DNA of 64,000 nucleotides. Origin: Halarcobacter sp. (GTDB lineage Bacteria > Campylobacterota > Campylobacteria > Campylobacterales > Arcobacteraceae). The DNA is taken from the NCBI GenBank assembly GCA_030145305.1, contig JAQYVX010000002.1:186001-250000 (forward strand). The letters are read 5' to 3'. The notes beneath the pieces were generated by a model. That model saw only the letters and a list, made by a program, of their open reading frames with translations, was not told where the DNA came from and searched no databases. How positions within the stretch are numbered: position 1 is the stretch's first letter; each line of letters starts with the position of its first letter. The translations under genes and the position numbers were made by a program. This document shows, piece by piece, positions 1,801 through 9,781 of this stretch.

Positions 1801-3336
1801 TTAGTAGTCTAAAGGATACTCTTTTGGAATTATAATATTCATAGAATCATTAGCTTTTTTTATTTCTGAAAGTAATATTTGATTAGAAAAAAGATCACCA
1901 CATAATATTAGATTTTCTGCATTTAATTCTTCATTAATTAGAATGACATTTGTATTAATAAATTCAGCTAAACTTTCATAAAAAGAGTATGCAAGCTTAG
2001 GATTATCGACATCAGCTATTTTGTAACTCATAATACTTTGAATAATTTTTCTATAATCTAAGTATCTCTTACCATCAATTTTAATAATATTCATATTGAT
2101 TTGAAGCGCATTCTCTCCATCATAGGAAAGTGCTGTATCTTCAAACTCATTATTGTTTTTTATTCCCATGATATAAGATAATAAATTTAAAATTGAAGCA
2201 AAACTATTAAAATCTTTTTTAATAAACTCTTCTTCAAAATATTTACTAAATTTCTTTTTATAATTTATAACTAACCTAGCAGCATTTTCATCAATATTTT
2301 TAATATCTTCTAAACAATTTTCAATATTATTCAAAACATTTGGAATTAAAATTACATCTTTTTCTCCAAGACTTGGAACATTTATCTTTATTGCCGATTC
2401 TTCACTTTTTTGAGAAAAATATATTCCAATAGAAGGAACATATTTTTTATCAAATTGGGCCAAAATAGATTTATAAATAGACCCATACTCTTCAAAGTAA
2501 TCATTACATGAAAAAACTTTTCTTTTTAATTCATAATCATATTTAGGAAAAATTCCTTTTTCACCATGAATTATTATATTTTGACTCTGTGTATAGGTAA
2601 CTTTTAATCCATCTTGGTAAACATCATCATTTACATAAAGTAAATAATCAATCCCTTCTTTTTTTAAAGATTGTGAAAATAGAACTGTTTCCTTATCATC
2701 TGCAATTTTTGCATAAATAAAATTTGTATTTGAATACTCATTATTAATATTTTGTGAATGTTTAAATTTTAATTTAATAAGAGGTCTTTCTATAGAGCAA
2801 AGTAATTGTAAATCTTTTTTAGAAACTTCAAGCAAAGTTGATAGCTTATTAATATTAGTAATTAAAAGTTTAACTTCATAACCTTTTGATTCAAACTCTT
2901 TTCTAATTTTCAAAGAAGGAAGGAAAAGATCTTTTAAGCCATTGTGAGTTTCAAATCTTGAAACACCACCTTTTTTTATTTTATTTATATCATTTGAAAA
3001 ATCTATATTATTTTCTGAGGTGATTTTAACAATTTCGTCATTTGTTAATAAAGATAGATTTATTTTTATATCTTTTTCTTCTAACTCTAAATTTACATCA
3101 AAATCAAATTTATCAATAAATTCAGAATTTGCAAGGAATATTGAATTAGGTAACTTTTCTTCTAGTATTTTGAAAAAAATCTCAAGTTCTTCTTTTGTAT
3201 CATTACAGATTAAAAGAATAAACCCTTTATACATTTTAGCTTTGATATTTACCTTTGTATTACTTATCAAATCATCAATAATATGTTTAAAATAGAAGTT
3301 TGTTGAGTTAAATTCTATTTTATATATTAATTTCAT
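1801..3336 (-). CDS. HydE-like hydrogenase accessory protein (HypF C-terminal-like)
   Basis: A 511-residue protein with no signal peptide, lying directly upstream of hydA on the same strand. Its C-terminal third resembles the Kae1-like carbamoyltransferase region of HypF: a stretch near residues 455-475 (YSFYESLAEFINTN) and LILCGDLFSNQILL near 480-495 occupy the place of HypF's xSGGVFxNxxL motif. The glycines of that motif are mostly lost, so catalytic activity is doubtful. Helicobacter and Wolinella hyd operons carry a HydE of similar size and uncertain role; the assignment here rests on context and these weak motifs. AAGGA lies about 10 nt upstream of the ATG. It is separated from hydA by 272 nt, so it may be its own transcript. 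Confidence 0.5.
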   Translation of the reverse strand: MKLIYKIEFNSTNFYFKHIIDDLISNTKVNIKAKMYKGFILLICNDTKEELEIFFKILEEKLPNSIFLANSEFIDKFDFDVNLELEEKDIKINLSLLTNDEIVKITSENNIDFSNDINKIKKGGVSRFETHNGLKDLFLPSLKIRKEFESKGYEVKLLITNINKLSTLLEVSKKDLQLLCSIERPLIKLKFKHSQNINNEYSNTNFIYAKIADDKETVLFSQSLKKEGIDYLLYVNDDVYQDGLKVTYTQSQNIIIHGEKGIFPKYDYELKRKVFSCNDYFEEYGSIYKSILAQFDKKYVPSIGIYFSQKSEESAIKINVPSLGEKDVILIPNVLNNIENCLEDIKNIDENAARLVINYKKKFSKYFEEEFIKKDFNSFASILNLLSYIMGIKNNNEFEDTALSYDGENALQINMNIIKIDGKRYLDYRKIIQSIMSYKIADVDNPKLAYSFYESLAEFINTNVILINEELNAENLILCGDLFSNQILLSEIKKANDSMNIIIPKEYPLDY

Positions 3337-3477
3337 ATAATATTTTCCTTGCTAGCTAATATATCTTAATACGATTATTATAACTTGCACTTTGTTTAAC
3401 TTCAATAGTTTTTATATTTTTTTTATATTTTCTTAAGTTTGTGATACAAATTGTCTCAATTTTTATATAATTCTTCT

Positions 3478-4833
3478 TTAATGAGTTGTACAAACAGAAC
3501 AAACATCAAAACTTCTTAATATTATTTTCGCTTTTTCTATGGAATCATTTCCAATTATTGCCTTTTGTGCAACTGAAAGATTTTTTTTATCTCCAGGCCC
3601 TAAATTCCAAACAGTAGGAGTTATAACATTATAATTACTTATTTTTCCATCTTCAATTAAAACTTGGTGTAATAATGAACCTCTAGTTGCTTCAACAACA
3701 GCTGTACCTTCGGCTTTTTTTACATCTTTTAAAGATATTTTAGGTTTTATAAATGATTCTTCACTAATATCAACTTGCTTGATCAAACTCTTTGTAGTAT
3801 AAAGAAGATGTGCTAATTCATCCATTCTTGCCATTACTCTAGTAAAAACTGAATCATCATATATTTTATGTATATCTTTTATAAAATCCCTATTTTGTAC
3901 TATTGCTCTTGACAAGGGTCCTGTTTCATAAAAACTTTTTTGATATGTAACGTTTTTTGCCCAACCAAAAGCATCTGCACTATCTTTTGATTTATCGATA
4001 TTGTAAGTATAATGGCTATCTTCTCTTATATTTTTTAAATCAAGTTTATGAATCATTCTTTTATTGATTTTTCCACTTCTAAATAATGAAGATTCTCCTA
4101 ATACAATATGTCTATTATAACTTTTTCCAATTTTTTCTAAACTATTTTCAAAAGAAAGCTTAGCAAAATCTTTTAAATCACCTTTTATTTTTTCAAGTTC
4201 CCCTACTTTTGAAAAAGATAAATATTTTTCAAATTCAACACCAGCAAAATCTTTTTCAAAAAAACTAATTGTATTATCTAGATAGTTTTGCATAGAACTT
4301 AAATCTAAAAGAGTAGGATCACAAACAACTCCTCCTGGAATCATATAAGAAGTATGTGGCCATTGACCTCCTATTATTGCCAAAGATTTTATAGTTTCAC
4401 TAGCAACAGAAGATGCTTTTAACCATTTTTTGCCTTTTAAAGGTGAGTATAAAGAGTAGTCATTTTTTGATAATGCTGTAATATCTGGCATGATAAACAT
4501 ATAAAACCATTTAATATGGGAATCAATTATCTCAATATTTAAACCAATTTCTCTTAAAAGTTTAGCCTTTCTTGTAATAGTTAACTTTTCACCTATATTT
4601 TCATAAATATTTTCTAAAGCTTCAACAGTTGTTTTTAAATGAGCTTGTCCACAAATTCCACAAATTCTTGGAGTATAAACCAAAGCATCTAAGGCAGATT
4701 TCCCTTTTAACATATATTCAAATCCTCTAAAATTCAAGAATTCGATTCGTGCATCACTTATAATTTTATTATCCCAAGAACAAACTAATTTAGCCTCACC
4801 CTCAATTCTCTCAACAATATCAACTGTTTTCAT
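3478..4833 (-). CDS. Group 2-type cytoplasmic [NiFe] hydrogenase large subunit (HupV/HupL-like)
   Basis: 451-residue catalytic subunit. The N-terminal L1 motif RICGICGQAH (residues 56-65) is intact. The protein ends exactly at DVCSVCTTH, the L5 nickel motif, with Pro replaced by Val (usual DPCxxCxxH) and no C-terminal extension after the final His. Lack of that extension is a property of regulatory (HoxC/HupV) subunits, which mature without endopeptidase cleavage. AAAGG lies 5 nt before the ATG. Its small-subunit partner is encoded at 5573-6475, but a gene on the opposite strand sits between them. It could act in H2 sensing or cytoplasmic H2 oxidation; the sequence alone does not decide. Confidence 0.85.
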   Translation of the reverse strand: MKTVDIVERIEGEAKLVCSWDNKIISDARIEFLNFRGFEYMLKGKSALDALVYTPRICGICGQAHLKTTVEALENIYENIGEKLTITRKAKLLREIGLNIEIIDSHIKWFYMFIMPDITALSKNDYSLYSPLKGKKWLKASSVASETIKSLAIIGGQWPHTSYMIPGGVVCDPTLLDLSSMQNYLDNTISFFEKDFAGVEFEKYLSFSKVGELEKIKGDLKDFAKLSFENSLEKIGKSYNRHIVLGESSLFRSGKINKRMIHKLDLKNIREDSHYTYNIDKSKDSADAFGWAKNVTYQKSFYETGPLSRAIVQNRDFIKDIHKIYDDSVFTRVMARMDELAHLLYTTKSLIKQVDISEESFIKPKISLKDVKKAEGTAVVEATRGSLLHQVLIEDGKISNYNVITPTVWNLGPGDKKNLSVAQKAIIGNDSIEKAKIILRSFDVCSVCTTH

Positions 4834-4940
4834 AATAGCCTTTCAAATAATAAGCAATTTTAACATATTATCGATAATAGCATTATTTTTAAATCAGTAA
4901 TTTTTAAGATTAGAATTAACAATTACTATATAATAAACTA

Positions 4941-5576
4941 ATGAAATTAATACTAATTATACTAATATGCACAAATTTTTTGTTTGCATCAACTTTAAAA
5001 GATTTAGATATTACTGATGATGATTTTTTAAAAATACTTCATTCTACTAAGAAGAATTTTATTCTAGATAGAATAAATGATTTAATACTTTTAAAAAAAT
5101 CTTTAAAGAATATTGATGATGATTTTATAAAGTTAAATGCTATTAATGACTATTTTAATGAATACAACTTTAGCTCTGATTTAAAAGTATATAAAAAAAA
5201 TGATTATTGGGCGACAAGAAAAGAGTTTATTTTTAAAGGTAGTGGAGATTGTGAAGATTTTGTTATTGCAAAATATTTTACTTTATTAGAAGCAGGTGTT
5301 GATGAAAATAAATTATCACTTCTACATAATATAAGAAAAAATGAATATCATTTAGTTTTAGCTTATCAAGAAGAACAATTCTCTGATGTTTTAATCTTAG
5401 ATAATATTGAGAAAAAGATTCTACCACTTACTAACAGACATGATATACTTGTTTTATATACGCTTGAAACTATAGATTTAAAAGAATCTATAGATTTAAC
5501 TACAGATTTGCAAAATCTTAGTAATTATAAATGGACTGAAATTTATTTAAAATCAAAAAGAAACTATAATAATTAA
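4941..5576 (+). CDS. LapG-like periplasmic transglutaminase-like cysteine protease (BTLCP family)
   Basis: 211 residues with an N-terminal signal peptide (about 1-17). The catalytic triad of the bacterial transglutaminase-like cysteine proteinase family is visible: Cys104 in GDCEDF, His137 in YHLVL and Asp154 in ILDN. LapG members cleave large adhesins at the cell surface under control of a c-di-GMP receptor (LapD); no LapD or adhesin gene is in the window. The gene lies between the two group-2 hydrogenase genes on the opposite strand, overlaps the hupU-like stop by 4 nt, and diverges from the hupV-like gene. Confidence 0.8.
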   Translation: MKLILIILICTNFLFASTLKDLDITDDDFLKILHSTKKNFILDRINDLILLKKSLKNIDDDFIKLNAINDYFNEYNFSSDLKVYKKNDYWATRKEFIFKGSGDCEDFVIAKYFTLLEAGVDENKLSLLHNIRKNEYHLVLAYQEEQFSDVLILDNIEKKILPLTNRHDILVLYTLETIDLKESIDLTTDLQNLSNYKWTEIYLKSKRNYNN

Positions 5577-6475
5577 TCATTTAATTTTTTATGAAGTCTT
5601 TCAATTTTAAAAGTCTTTGCAATTCCTGTTAAAGAAAGATATGCTCTTTTTGAAATACCTAAGGGAACTTCATGGGGAATTCCGATGTTCTTTCTCGTCT
5701 CTAACATATTATCTCTTGGAAAATCACTTTCTGTACACCCAATACATGGCATTCCAACTCTAGTTTTGCTGTTAACATCGTTCCATAAAATTTTATTACA
5801 ACTAGCATGAGTCATAGGACCTCTACATCCTTGTTCATAAAAAAGACAGCCTTCTTTATGTCCAAAGCTTTCTGCTTCAACTTTCCATTCAAAATACTCA
5901 TTTCTAGTACATCCATGATGTGCTAAAGAAGAGTACAATTCAACTGGTCTACCTTCTTCATCTAATTTCATTTTCCCATACTCTTTTAAAGAAAAAAGCG
6001 TTTGAAGAATCCATTCAGGATGAACAGGACAACCTGTTAAATTAATAATAGGGTGTTGTAATAAAGATAAGCTTTTAGCTTCTATTGACTTACTTAAACT
6101 TTTTATATCTTTATTCTCTTCAAATTTTGCATGAATTCCACCATTTGAAGCGCAAGAACCAACAGCAATTAGGTATTTTGTTTTTTTTATTAATTTATTT
6201 ATTAAAGAATTAGTAGAAAGATTTGAAAGAGAAAAAAACCTCTCATTGGAGCTAATTGCACCTTCAACTAAAAGATAATCTATTTCAATATTGGAGCTTA
6301 AAATCTCTTTTAAAGTAATATTTACTGTTAAAGAAGGATGATAAATCAAATCAAAACTATCTAAAAATAGTCGCATTCTATTATCATTTGCACTTAAAAA
6401 GGAGTGTGTATTTCCATTACAAGTGATAGCTTGAAACCATAATACTTTTGGTTTGCTTTTTTTATGAATCCTCAT
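5573..6475 (-). CDS. Group 2-type cytoplasmic [NiFe] hydrogenase small subunit (HupU/HupS-like)
   Basis: 300 residues with no Tat signal, so cytoplasmic. Cluster motifs are visible: TCNGN at residues 18-22 replaces the usual CxGC, so the second proximal-cluster ligand position is Asn; VGSCASNGG, GCPVHPEW, HHGCTRNE, GCLFYEQGCRGP and GMPCIGCTESDF provide the rest. Asn at this position is, to my knowledge, found in cyanobacterial-type group 2 subunits. The ATG at 6475 overlaps the end of the TetR gene by 14 nt and has no clear Shine-Dalgarno sequence, suggesting translational coupling. Its large-subunit partner is at 3478-4833. Confidence 0.88.
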   Translation of the reverse strand: MRIHKKSKPKVLWFQAITCNGNTHSFLSANDNRMRLFLDSFDLIYHPSLTVNITLKEILSSNIEIDYLLVEGAISSNERFFSLSNLSTNSLINKLIKKTKYLIAVGSCASNGGIHAKFEENKDIKSLSKSIEAKSLSLLQHPIINLTGCPVHPEWILQTLFSLKEYGKMKLDEEGRPVELYSSLAHHGCTRNEYFEWKVEAESFGHKEGCLFYEQGCRGPMTHASCNKILWNDVNSKTRVGMPCIGCTESDFPRDNMLETRKNIGIPHEVPLGISKRAYLSLTGIAKTFKIERLHKKLND

Positions 6476-7055
6476 ATTTTAAAGCTCTATAAATATTTTC
6501 AGCAACAGAATCTGAATATTCTAAAATATCTTTTTCTAAAACTTTTTCTCCACATAAAAATGCAAATCCACCAAGAGCACCCATTATCATAGCAAAAGCA
6601 GAAAAGAATTCTTGTTGTCTAAATTCTTTTTTAGCAGCTCCATCATCAAGTAAAATCATTACTTCAGTAACAAAATCACTTACACATAAAAATCCCTCAC
6701 AACCATCGTTAAATACTTCTCTATTTGAAAGATAAACTCTTAAAAAATATTCAATTACTTCAGGTGACTTCTTTACATTTTCTAAATATGCCTTTGTAAA
6801 AACAAAGATTTTATCTCTTGAAGAAATATCTTGTTCATTTATTTTTCTAAGTTCAGTTGCTAAAACATTTGTTGAATATTTAATCGCATATTTTGCTAAC
6901 TCTTCTTTAGATTTAAAATAGTTATACATATTGCCAACGCTCATTTTCATTGATTTAGCAATATCTGGAATTGTTGTATTATAAAAACCTTTTGTAGAAA
7001 AGAGTTTTAATGAGTTTTCAATAATTGTATTCTTTTTTTCTTCTTTTGTAGGCAT
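6462..7055 (-). CDS. TetR/AcrR family transcriptional regulator
   Basis: 197 residues. The N-terminal helix-turn-helix is typical (GFYNTTIPDIAKSMKMSVGN, then MYNYFKSKEELAKYAI); the remainder is an all-helical ligand-binding region. AAGGA lies 7 nt before the ATG. Its 3' end overlaps the hupU-like gene, so the two are co-translated. A perfect palindrome upstream of the gene has a near copy upstream of hydA, which suggests autoregulation plus control of the respiratory hydrogenase. The ligand is unknown. Confidence 0.92.
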   Translation of the reverse strand: MPTKEEKKNTIIENSLKLFSTKGFYNTTIPDIAKSMKMSVGNMYNYFKSKEELAKYAIKYSTNVLATELRKINEQDISSRDKIFVFTKAYLENVKKSPEVIEYFLRVYLSNREVFNDGCEGFLCVSDFVTEVMILLDDGAAKKEFRQQEFFSAFAMIMGALGGFAFLCGEKVLEKDILEYSDSVAENIYRALKYEDS

Positions 7056-7207: not shown

Positions 7208-9781
7208 TTAAGAGTGAACTAAATTAGTTAATTCTTCACCTGTTAATTGGTGGAAATTTAAGTATTTATAAATATCATCTCTTTTTTCAGGAGTGATTTT
7301 CTTAGGTACCATATCTAGGTATTCTTCTTTAGTTGGAAGTCTTCCTAAAAGTGCAGATAAAGCTGCTACTTCTGCAGAACCTAAATAAACTTGAGAATCT
7401 TTTCCAAGTCTATTATCAAAGTTTCTTGTAGATGTAGAGAATACAACTGCACCTTGACCAACATTTGCTTGGTTACCCATACATAAAGAACATCCAGGAA
7501 TTTCAAGTCTAGCACCTGCTGCTCCAAATACTGAATAATAACCCTCTTCTGTTAATTGTTGTTGATCCATTTTTGTTGGTGGTGCAATCCATAATTTAGT
7601 AGGAACTGGACCTTCACCTTTAAGAACTTCACCTAAAGCTCTAAATAATCCAATATTAGTCATACAAGAACCTACGAATACTTCGTCAATTCTATCTGTA
7701 ATTCTTTTTGGATCTGCTAAGATGTTTGTTAAAGTATCAACATCATCTGGATCATTAGGACAAGCTAATAATGGTTCTGTAATTTCATTTAAATTAATTT
7801 CAATAGTTGCTAAATATTCTGCGTCTGAATCAGGAGTAATTAATTCAGGATTAGCAATCCATTCTTTCATTTTATCAGCTCTTCTTTGTAATGTTCTAGA
7901 GTCTTCATAACCCTCTTCAATCATTTTTTCGATTAAAGCGATATTTGAAGATAAGTACTCAATAATTGGTTCTTTATCTAATTGTACAGAACAAGCTGCT
8001 GCACTTCTTTCTGCTGCTGCATCAGATAATTCAAATGCTTGCTCAACTTTTAGTTTTGGAAGTCCTGAAATTTCCATTACATTTCCAGCAAAGATATTTT
8101 TCTTACCTTTTTTCTCAACAGTTAATAAACCATCTTTAATAGCTTGGTATGGAATAGCATTAACTAAATCTCTTAATGTAATTCCAGGTTGTAATTCACC
8201 TGTAAATTTAATATGAACAGATTCAGGCATAGTTAAAGGCATCATACCTGTAACTCCTGCAAAGGCAACAAGACCAGAACCAGCTGGGAATGAAATACCA
8301 ATTGGGAATCTTGTATGTGAATCTCCACCAGTACCAACAGTATCAGGTAAACATAATCTATTTAACCAAGAGTGAATAACACCATCACCTGGTCTTAAAG
8401 TAACACCAGCTCTACTTGTAATAAACTCAGGAAGTGTATGTTGTAAGTTAATATCTGCTGGTTTTGGATAAGCAGCTGTATGACAGAATGATTGCATAAC
8501 CATATCAGCACCAAAAGAAAGTGCTGCTAGTTCTTTAATCTCATCTCTAGTCATTGGTCCTGTTGTATCTTGCGAACCTACTGTTGTACAAATTGGCTCA
8601 ACATACATACCAGGTTTAACACCTTCAATACCACATGCTCTTCCTACCATTTTTTGAGCTTGTGTAAATCCATTAGTAGAAGCAGCTGGTTGAGAAGCTG
8701 TTATAAATATATCAGAAGCATTTAAACCTAAAGCAGTTCTTGCTTTTGCAGTTAAACCTTTTCCAATAATAAGTGGAATTCTTCCACCTGCTCTCATTTC
8801 ATCAGTTAATGTGTTTGGAGCTAAATTAAATTCAGAAACTACTTCACCATTTTTAAGAATTTGACCTGCAAATGGTTTTAAAGTAATTACGTCACCAGTT
8901 TCTAATTCATCAACAGGAGCTTGGATTGGTAAACAACCTGAATCTTCCGCTGTATTAAAGAAAATTGGAGCAATAATAGAACCAATAACAACCCCACCAG
9001 TTCTTTTATTTGGAACACCTGGAATATCTCTACCCATATGCCATTGAACAGAGTTGATACCTGATTTTCTAGAACTTCCTGTTCCTACAACATCACCAAC
9101 GTATGCTAAAGGATGCCCTTTTTTCTTTAATTCTTCCATAGTTTCAAGTGGATTTTCCATTCTTGATTGTAACATTGCAGTTGCATGTAATGGAATATCT
9201 GCTCTTGTAAATGCTACAGTTGCAGGAGATAAATCATCTGTATTTGTTTCACCAGGAATTTTGTATACAGTTAATGTAATTTCTTCTTCAAGTGCTGGTT
9301 TATTTGTAAACCATTCAGCATTTGCCCATGATTCAATAATTGCTTTTGCATGTGCATTTCCAGCATCTGCTAAATCTTTTACATCATTGAATGAATCATA
9401 AACTAAAATTGTATTCTTTAATTGTGCAGCTGCAATTTCTGCAACGTCATCGATTTTTAATGCATCTACAAGTGGAGTAACATTAAATCCACCCATCATT
9501 GTTCCTAAAATTTCAATTGCTTCTACTTTTGAAATAACTGAACAAGTAGCTTTATCTTGTACAATATCATTTAAAAATGCAGCTTTAACATAAGCGGCAT
9601 CATCAACACCTGGGCTAACTTTATTTTTAAATAAATCTAGTGCGTAATTGGCATCAGAAGTATTTGCTTTTAAAACTTCTACTAATTGTGCAGTTTGCTC
9701 AGCAGTTAATGCTAATGGTGGTAAACCACCTTCTTGTAGTCTTTCTTCAGTATGTGCTCTATAATCAGCGATTAAACTCAT
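7208..9781 (-). CDS. acnB: Bifunctional aconitate hydratase 2 / 2-methylisocitrate dehydratase AcnB
   Basis: 857 residues, the usual AcnB length. It converts citrate to isocitrate via cis-aconitate in the TCA cycle. Domain order is the AcnB type: helical HEAT-like N-terminus, swivel domain ([17 protein letters not shown], residues about 170-190; GTGSSRKSG), then the iron-sulfur domains. The [4Fe-4S] ligands are visible as the Cys in [10 protein letters not shown] and the two in [18 protein letters not shown] precedes the ATG by 7 nt. Monocistronic, with its own terminator. Long TGTACA-containing spacer upstream. Confidence 0.98.

Follow-up and report, generated by a model that had tools for sequence, protein, structure and literature searches.

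When an enzyme consists of two subunits, operon coupling normally keeps the corresponding genes together. The LapG proteases of the LapG-LapD system belong to the peptidase C93 family and carry a signal-like N-terminus, a Cys-His-Asp triad and a GDCED motif. For the group 2 [NiFe]-hydrogenases, the available parts of the HydDB description (PMC5037454) and of the work on Sulfurimonas Hup, which was placed in group 2b (PMC7952632), give the same subunit architecture as that of the pair considered here, and a three-hydrogenase gene cluster (hupSL, hyd, hya) has been reported for Arcobacter butzleri (PMC2147049). The Staphylococcus aureus locus menE-menC-MW1733-ytkD-MW1731 holds an opposite-strand coding gene between co-directional linked genes, with overlapping transcripts expected and with co-transcription and reciprocal control demonstrated, in the portion of PMC7154746 that defines such noncontiguous operons. 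In the Epsilonproteobacteria, the arrangement gnTAnaAT-N5-9-ATG is predicted to be leaderless, and the leaderless genes are poorly conserved, one of 23 being predicted leaderless in all species containing it, according to the accessible text of PMC3847290.

The present work concerns a window of 64,000 nucleotides, i.e., the whole stretch of DNA that was analysed (contig C6:186001-250000 of a 3.03-Mb genome of Halarcobacter sp. in 77 contigs), in which the genes for the two subunits of a group 2-type [NiFe]-hydrogenase are separated by an antisense gene of a LapG-like protease. Probably, a hupUV operon that already existed received an orphan LapG-type gene in antisense orientation, and separate promoters have replaced the operon coupling.

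Organization and intactness of the locus

The coordinates and strands given for the three genes in a preliminary description were reproduced, each gene being complete in the window: the large subunit (hupV/hupL-like, 451 aa, without a C-terminal extension) at 3478-4833 on the minus strand, the protease (211 aa) at 4941-5576 on the plus strand, and the small subunit (hupU/hupS-like, 300 aa) at 5573-6475 on the minus strand. The tail-to-tail overlap of the protease and small-subunit ORFs is indeed 4 nt (5573-5576), and the start of hupV on the minus strand lies 107 nt from that of the protease gene on the plus strand. The gene of a TetR-family regulator (6462-7055, minus strand; ORF and Pfam) overlaps the start of the small subunit by 14 nt, an order kept in the relatives. 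The locus is adjoined by the gene of a HypF C-terminal-domain-like protein (1801-3336, minus strand; HypF_C_2 at 1.2e-07, and synteny) and bounded, by ORF and synteny, by a minus-strand gene at 7208-9781, which we take to be that of aconitase B.

The large subunit matched Pfam NiFeSe_Hases (3.1e-44) and the small subunit both Oxidored_q6 and NiFe_hyd_SSU_C, and their best solved relatives were the 'Hydrogenase-2' chains 7utd_A (6e-45) and 7uur_D (4e-52), respectively, with 7utd, 7uus and 7uur top-ranked for both subunits; the 7utd/7uur chains we take to be the group 2a enzyme Huc. The earlier assignment of the pair to a group 2-type hydrogenase is thereby upheld by domains and solved relatives, the latter being presumably group 2 enzymes. 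Both subunit domains and the L1/L2 cysteine motifs of the large subunit that mark a group 2 [NiFe]-hydrogenase were found; the L1 motif RICGICGQAH and the HupV C-terminus D(V/I)CSVCTTH, with no extension to cleave, were each present in 19/19 homologues compared.

No second pair of the hupUV kind was found in the window genome, where the other matches to nickel-hydrogenase large subunits belong to the neighbouring gene of group 1-like type and to a distant gene of contig C38. The latter, outside the window (C38:181234-182562), encodes a large-subunit-like protein 26% identical to HupV. A hya-like second hydrogenase operon with its maturation protease lies between hupV and the HypF-like gene in all 14 other members of the genus that show the locus, and is missing in the window genome (site: window 3337-3477).

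This missing neighbour of hupV, together with an in-frame TAG in the hupU of G060 (L063:10756-11658), would suit the explanation that the hydrogenase genes are degenerating leftovers and that the insertion was tolerated for that reason. However, hupV, hupU and the protease gene are under purifying selection, the pairwise dN/dS among five genomes with the split arrangement being 0.12-0.27, 0.13-0.21 and 0.14-0.25, respectively, as low as among five contiguous relatives (0.05-0.33). In-frame stops were absent from hupV, the protease gene and tetR in all five split genomes and from hupU in four of them, G060 being the exception, and the cofactor motifs of the large subunit are intact. The proposal that these might be degenerate copies beside an intact hupUV pair elsewhere is rejected on the dN/dS values and the intact motifs, and degeneration as the general cause is highly improbable.

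The nested protease and its relatives

The middle gene matched Peptidase_C93 (1.5e-12) and the solved structure 4fgo ('Periplasmic protein') with 2.8e-23, or 7e-29 with a profile, so that protease homology at 4941-5576 is real; 4fgo is presumably the LapG of Legionella. Its Cys104, His137 and Asp154 align with the catalytic residues of this solved relative, and its N-terminus is signal-like. Thus, the C93 domain and the triad of LapG are both present. However, the protein reached 108.4 bits against the cut-off of 320 bits of the NCBIfam model for LapG (NF045674), and its neighbours are hydrogenase genes instead of an adjacent lapD. The earlier naming as a LapG-type protease therefore stands for the family and the structural match and falls for LapG in the strict sense: with this score and no LapD neighbour, the hup-nested gene is regarded as LapG-like only, an orphan paralogue with a peptidase C93 domain, whose product is probably periplasmic and may act as a cysteine protease.

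Protease trees were built for 75 LapG-like proteins of the family and for 59 proteins, 18 of which belong to further families of the order. The LapG-like trees give four types, designated A to D, of which A and D are sisters and have no LapD neighbour in the loci seen, and of which B and C include canonical pairs, a B gene in the genome of the window and a C gene in G063 being located directly before the gene of a LapD_MoxY_N-GGDEF-EAL protein. The hup-nested genes belong to type D in six members of the genus, and were grouped both in the type-A tree of 75 family proteins (all six, 95/89) and in the order-wide tree of 59 proteins (the five included, 100/99). Intact type-D relatives are found in G086 and G087, where they lie between the aconitase and HypF-like genes in the same orientation, and C-terminal type-D fragments adjoin the aconitase gene at contig ends in G088 and G089; none of the four genomes of this genus (G086-G089) gave a match to either hydrogenase subunit. 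Since the two type-D groups stand on long branches, with a warning from the tree tool, their union is unsure. A short divergent protease fragment of G093 (L169:8979-9392) took a place close to type D, its branch being very long.

In the order-wide search of 398 genomes, the listed matches from outside the genus reached at most 49% identity to the protease, with part of the protein aligned. The protease was called as an ORF at 18 of the 20 order-wide places fetched, directly before a gene of 629-653 aa in 17/18 and before a contig end within such a gene in 1/18. From their size and by analogy with the canonical pair, these neighbours are taken as probable lapD genes. All the 18 proteases fell outside types A and D in the 59-protein tree.

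A second antisense nesting was found for the sister type A, in the 33 loci that were fetched out of all its matches. A class-IV aminotransferase gene stands beside the protease in 31/33 loci, always on the opposite strand and with an overlap of exactly 19 nt with the protease tail (31/31), and both flanking genes, where found (27 loci), are antisense to the protease. A -10 box lies exactly 5 nt before the ATG in 30/33 loci (TATTAT in 29, TACTAT in one), with the start of three loci set 15-21 nt inside the longest possible ORF, and a Shine-Dalgarno-like site occurs in 1/33. Such a -10 box was absent from all the 17 type-B genes and present in 8/14 type-C genes, with hexamer and spacing more varied. 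The constancy of type A stands out because leaderless genes are otherwise poorly conserved in the accessible account (PMC3847290). An example of this type-A arrangement, with the orphan LapG-like gene lying antisense to the adjacent aminotransferase gene, is L171:5381-6022.

Distribution and direction of the split

A total of 104 family genomes were searched with each protein, the listed matches of at least 40% identity being used, and the hupU-hupV distance was taken between the aligned ends on one contig, with the hupU stop codon counted in. Both subunits were on one contig in 62 genomes among the matches listed, and the distance was -2 to 28 nt in 54 of these, belonging to the window's genus and 13 other genera; the subunits are thus normally adjacent, as had been assumed, and the split is therefore derived. 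A distance of 693-751 nt with the protease inside was found in G000, G055, G059, G060, G065 and G066, i.e., in 6/16 genomes of the window's genus and in that genus alone among the family genomes measured. The overlap of protease and hupU is 4 nt in the window genome and 12 nt in the other five. Because the six genomes share both position and orientation, the placement of the protease is not due to chance.

The 77 contigs of the window genome and the uncultured origin of two split genomes (G065 and G066, one of them metagenome-assembled) might suggest an artefact of assembly or binning; however, the same junctions recur in six genomes with about 67-84% protein identity, and in five of them a contig runs through all three genes. 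An artefact is refuted for practical purposes by the six genomes, and its probability is negligible.

Two further genomes have separated subunits. In G057, 369 nt lie between the aligned ends with no ORF inside, and in G074, of another genus, hupU and hupV are 1888 nt apart with same-strand ORFs between them. The G057 spacer (L071:7242-7607) consists of 366 ORF-free, repeat-like bases, pieces of which are seen at contig ends of G061, where a transglycosylase gene lies upstream of hupV; in G074 (L173:2275-4138), the intervening same-strand ORFs are of 185, 98 and 317 aa. Four further genomes yielded no distance: in G020, G061 and G071 the subunits lie on different contigs, and for G103 hupU was the one subunit among the matches listed.

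The direction of change can be read from the end of hupU. In five of the six split genomes, the last four codons of the protease are the antisense of the hupU Leu-Ile-Asp-stop, and the protease stop is the complement of the hupU Leu codon. The hupU C-terminus KKLID also occurs in G054, G057 and G061, all without a protease insert, with KKLI in G067 and G068 and other ends in G056 and G058. Since the insert-free G054, G057 and G061 share the KKLID end, the protease came into an existing hupUV. The opposite course, with the split being ancestral, the contiguous pairs rejoined secondarily and the genus of G086-G089 having kept the protease after loss of its hydrogenase, is quite improbable: it would agree with the co-oriented type-D genes of G086 and G087 and the fragments of G088 and G089 beside aconitase at loci without a hydrogenase match, but the rejoining must have recreated the short junctions of 13 other genera many times, the protease tail of the six split genomes is read from the hupU antisense, and the two type-D groups are only doubtfully united. 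The type-D genes of G086 and G087 have no hupU-antisense tail.

The split genomes were not recovered as a clade in the trees of tetR+hupU, the HypF-like gene and HupV, and such a clade was not rejected, with p-AU of 0.475, 0.158 and 0.195, respectively, for five of the six genomes; in the HupV tree, G055 joins relatives without the protease (92/92). The most parsimonious course is one insertion of the protease, after which sister lineages may have lost it. G057 and G061 share 48 nt that include the hupV promoter region (96% identity), as well as repeats downstream of hupU. Protease remnants were found neither in the G057 spacer, which shares repeats with G061, nor at the G061 contig ends (best E 2.6). 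The cut-off hupV of these two genomes means that detachment there occurred without the protease or outlived its loss; hence, the detachment of hupV may predate the insertion, or the protease may have been lost in G057 and G061.

In the aconitase tree, G000 and G060 fall together with the genus of G086-G089 (100/100). A joint transfer of the protease and aconitase genes out of this genus was considered and rejected: the remaining four split genomes lie apart from it in the tree, and a joint transfer therefore cannot explain the insertion. The placement of the aconitases of the window genome and G060 with this distant genus, unlike the LapG type-A tree, likely reflects gene exchange.

Promoter-like motifs and expression of the split operon

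Upstream of hupV, the minus strand carries a Shine-Dalgarno-like GAAAGG (4839-4844, read by eye) and a candidate -10 octamer, GTTAAAAT (4857-4864), which fits gnTAnaAT and was found by comparison with TGNTARAAT. The latter motif ends 20-23 nt before the ATG in 8/8 cut-off hupV genes of the genus (the six split genomes, G057 and G061) and occurs within 60 nt upstream in 0/23 contiguous hupV genes, the 23 being those tested of 54. TGNTARAAT was defined after the sequences had been seen, and the published epsilonproteobacterial sigma-70 consensus gnTAnaAT gives the same counts (8/8 versus 0/23); the looser TANAAT does not discriminate (8/8 versus 22/23), largely because the codons of hupU contain it. 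The separate promoter earlier suggested for the large subunit thus finds support as a conserved motif, of which the promoter function is predicted. In G074, the octamer is absent before both candidate hupV starts. The eight cut-off genes all have, by eye, an ATG and a Shine-Dalgarno-like GAAAGG or similar.

The protease gene has a candidate -10 box TATAAT (4929-4934, plus strand) 6 nt before its ATG and is predicted to be leaderless. The hexamer stands at exactly this spacing in 6/6 nested type-D genes of the genus, whereas among 198 ATG-initiated ORFs of 120 aa or more, drawn from 16 loci of the genus, an exact TATAAT 4-8 nt before the ATG was found for six, four of them being this protease gene. 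A scan for paired -35/-10 boxes was no better than shuffles (30 found versus 27.7 expected). Terminator-like sites, in a scan for intrinsic terminators of four genomes, were absent from the hydrogenase strand between the hupU stop and the hupV start in 4/4; in two of these genomes, such sites were listed for the same strand within hupU, tetR or hupV.

Accommodating these motifs, the probable course of insertion would be as follows. An orphan gene of a putative periplasmic LapG-type protease would have been inserted antisense at the tetR-hupU-hupV junction in one lineage of the genus, bringing its own, presumably leaderless, transcription unit with the -10 box against its ATG, and would end within the antisense of the last hupU codons, a Leu codon giving its stop in five of six genomes. 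The detached hupV would be driven by its own sigma-70 promoter with a Shine-Dalgarno site, so that the two subunits would be made from two units, tetR-hupU being transcribed from upstream. Given the absence of terminator-like sites from the hupU-hupV interval of the four genomes on the hydrogenase strand, some read-through from tetR-hupU across the antisense protease gene into hupV is possible, and overlapping transcripts, from which the transcriptional interference suggested earlier might arise, are plausible on this ground and from the tail-to-tail geometry.

The same geometry fits the noncontiguous operon as defined in the accessible portion of PMC7154746, with an opposite-strand gene within a co-directional gene set. 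There would then be one long tetR-hupU-[antisense protease]-hupV transcript, fully complementary in its middle to the protease mRNA, and the two would suppress the expression of each other through polymerase collision and RNase III cleavage. Besides the terminator scan, the tail overlap, which leaves no space for a terminator, speaks for this mechanism, as does the likewise nested sister type A with its invariable overlap in another gene set. However, the scan is confined to intrinsic terminators and did list candidates within hupU, tetR or hupV for two of the four genomes, and a promoter-like site and a Shine-Dalgarno sequence precede hupV itself, so that co-transcription is not needed; such an operon is a possible but rather doubtful explanation. 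A further extension, in which types A and D would be leaderless antisense genes with fixed tail overlaps residing in metabolic operons by design, as noncontiguous operons in which an adhesin-releasing protease of the periplasm would be linked with the off state of the host operon, is unlikely. If true, type A would be tied to the aminotransferase gene set and type D to hydrogen metabolism, and a link of hydrogen metabolism with adhesin release is speculation.

With antisense insertion and separate promoters as the preferred reading, the locus is a natural example of an operon interrupted but not broken, in which the change is readable base by base: before it, a junction of a few bases and GTG or TTG starts in 10/23 contiguous hupV genes; after it, a hupV with its own promoter motif, Shine-Dalgarno site and ATG, and an intruding gene whose stop codon comes from the antisense of the adjacent gene. 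In a limited literature search, nothing was found on an orphan LapG type that is conserved and whose antisense overlap is exactly constant, nor any paper joining LapG with Arcobacter, LapG/LapD with Campylobacterota, or LapG with hydrogenase. With this orphan type, the Campylobacterota offer a natural setting in which to test both noncontiguous operons and leaderless genes.

Comparison with known systems

The nested protease shares with the LapG-LapD system the C93 family, the signal-like N-terminus, the Cys-His-Asp triad and the GDCED motif, but differs in having no LapD neighbour, in scoring below the NCBI LapG cut-off and in belonging to a subfamily sister to another orphan type, while a canonical lapG-lapD pair is present elsewhere in the window genome. 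Compared with the group 2 [NiFe]-hydrogenases, in the parts available (PMC5037454, PMC7952632), the neighbour of the pair is a TetR-family gene and not that of a histidine kinase. The accessible account of A. butzleri mentions no interruption of hupSL (PMC2147049), and the window genome differs further by lacking the hya-like operon. The proteases show the same gnTAnaAT-N5-9-ATG arrangement as the leaderless mRNAs of Epsilonproteobacteria in the corresponding part of PMC3847290, but type A, unlike those poorly conserved genes, keeps the -10 box and the 5-nt spacing in 30/33 loci. Finally, the S. aureus noncontiguous operon (the relevant portion of PMC7154746) likewise has an opposite-strand coding gene between co-directional linked genes, and its co-transcription and reciprocal control were demonstrated, whereas both would be predictions for the locus in the window; in the latter, a promoter-like site precedes the downstream gene itself, and the parts that have been split are the two subunits of one enzyme.
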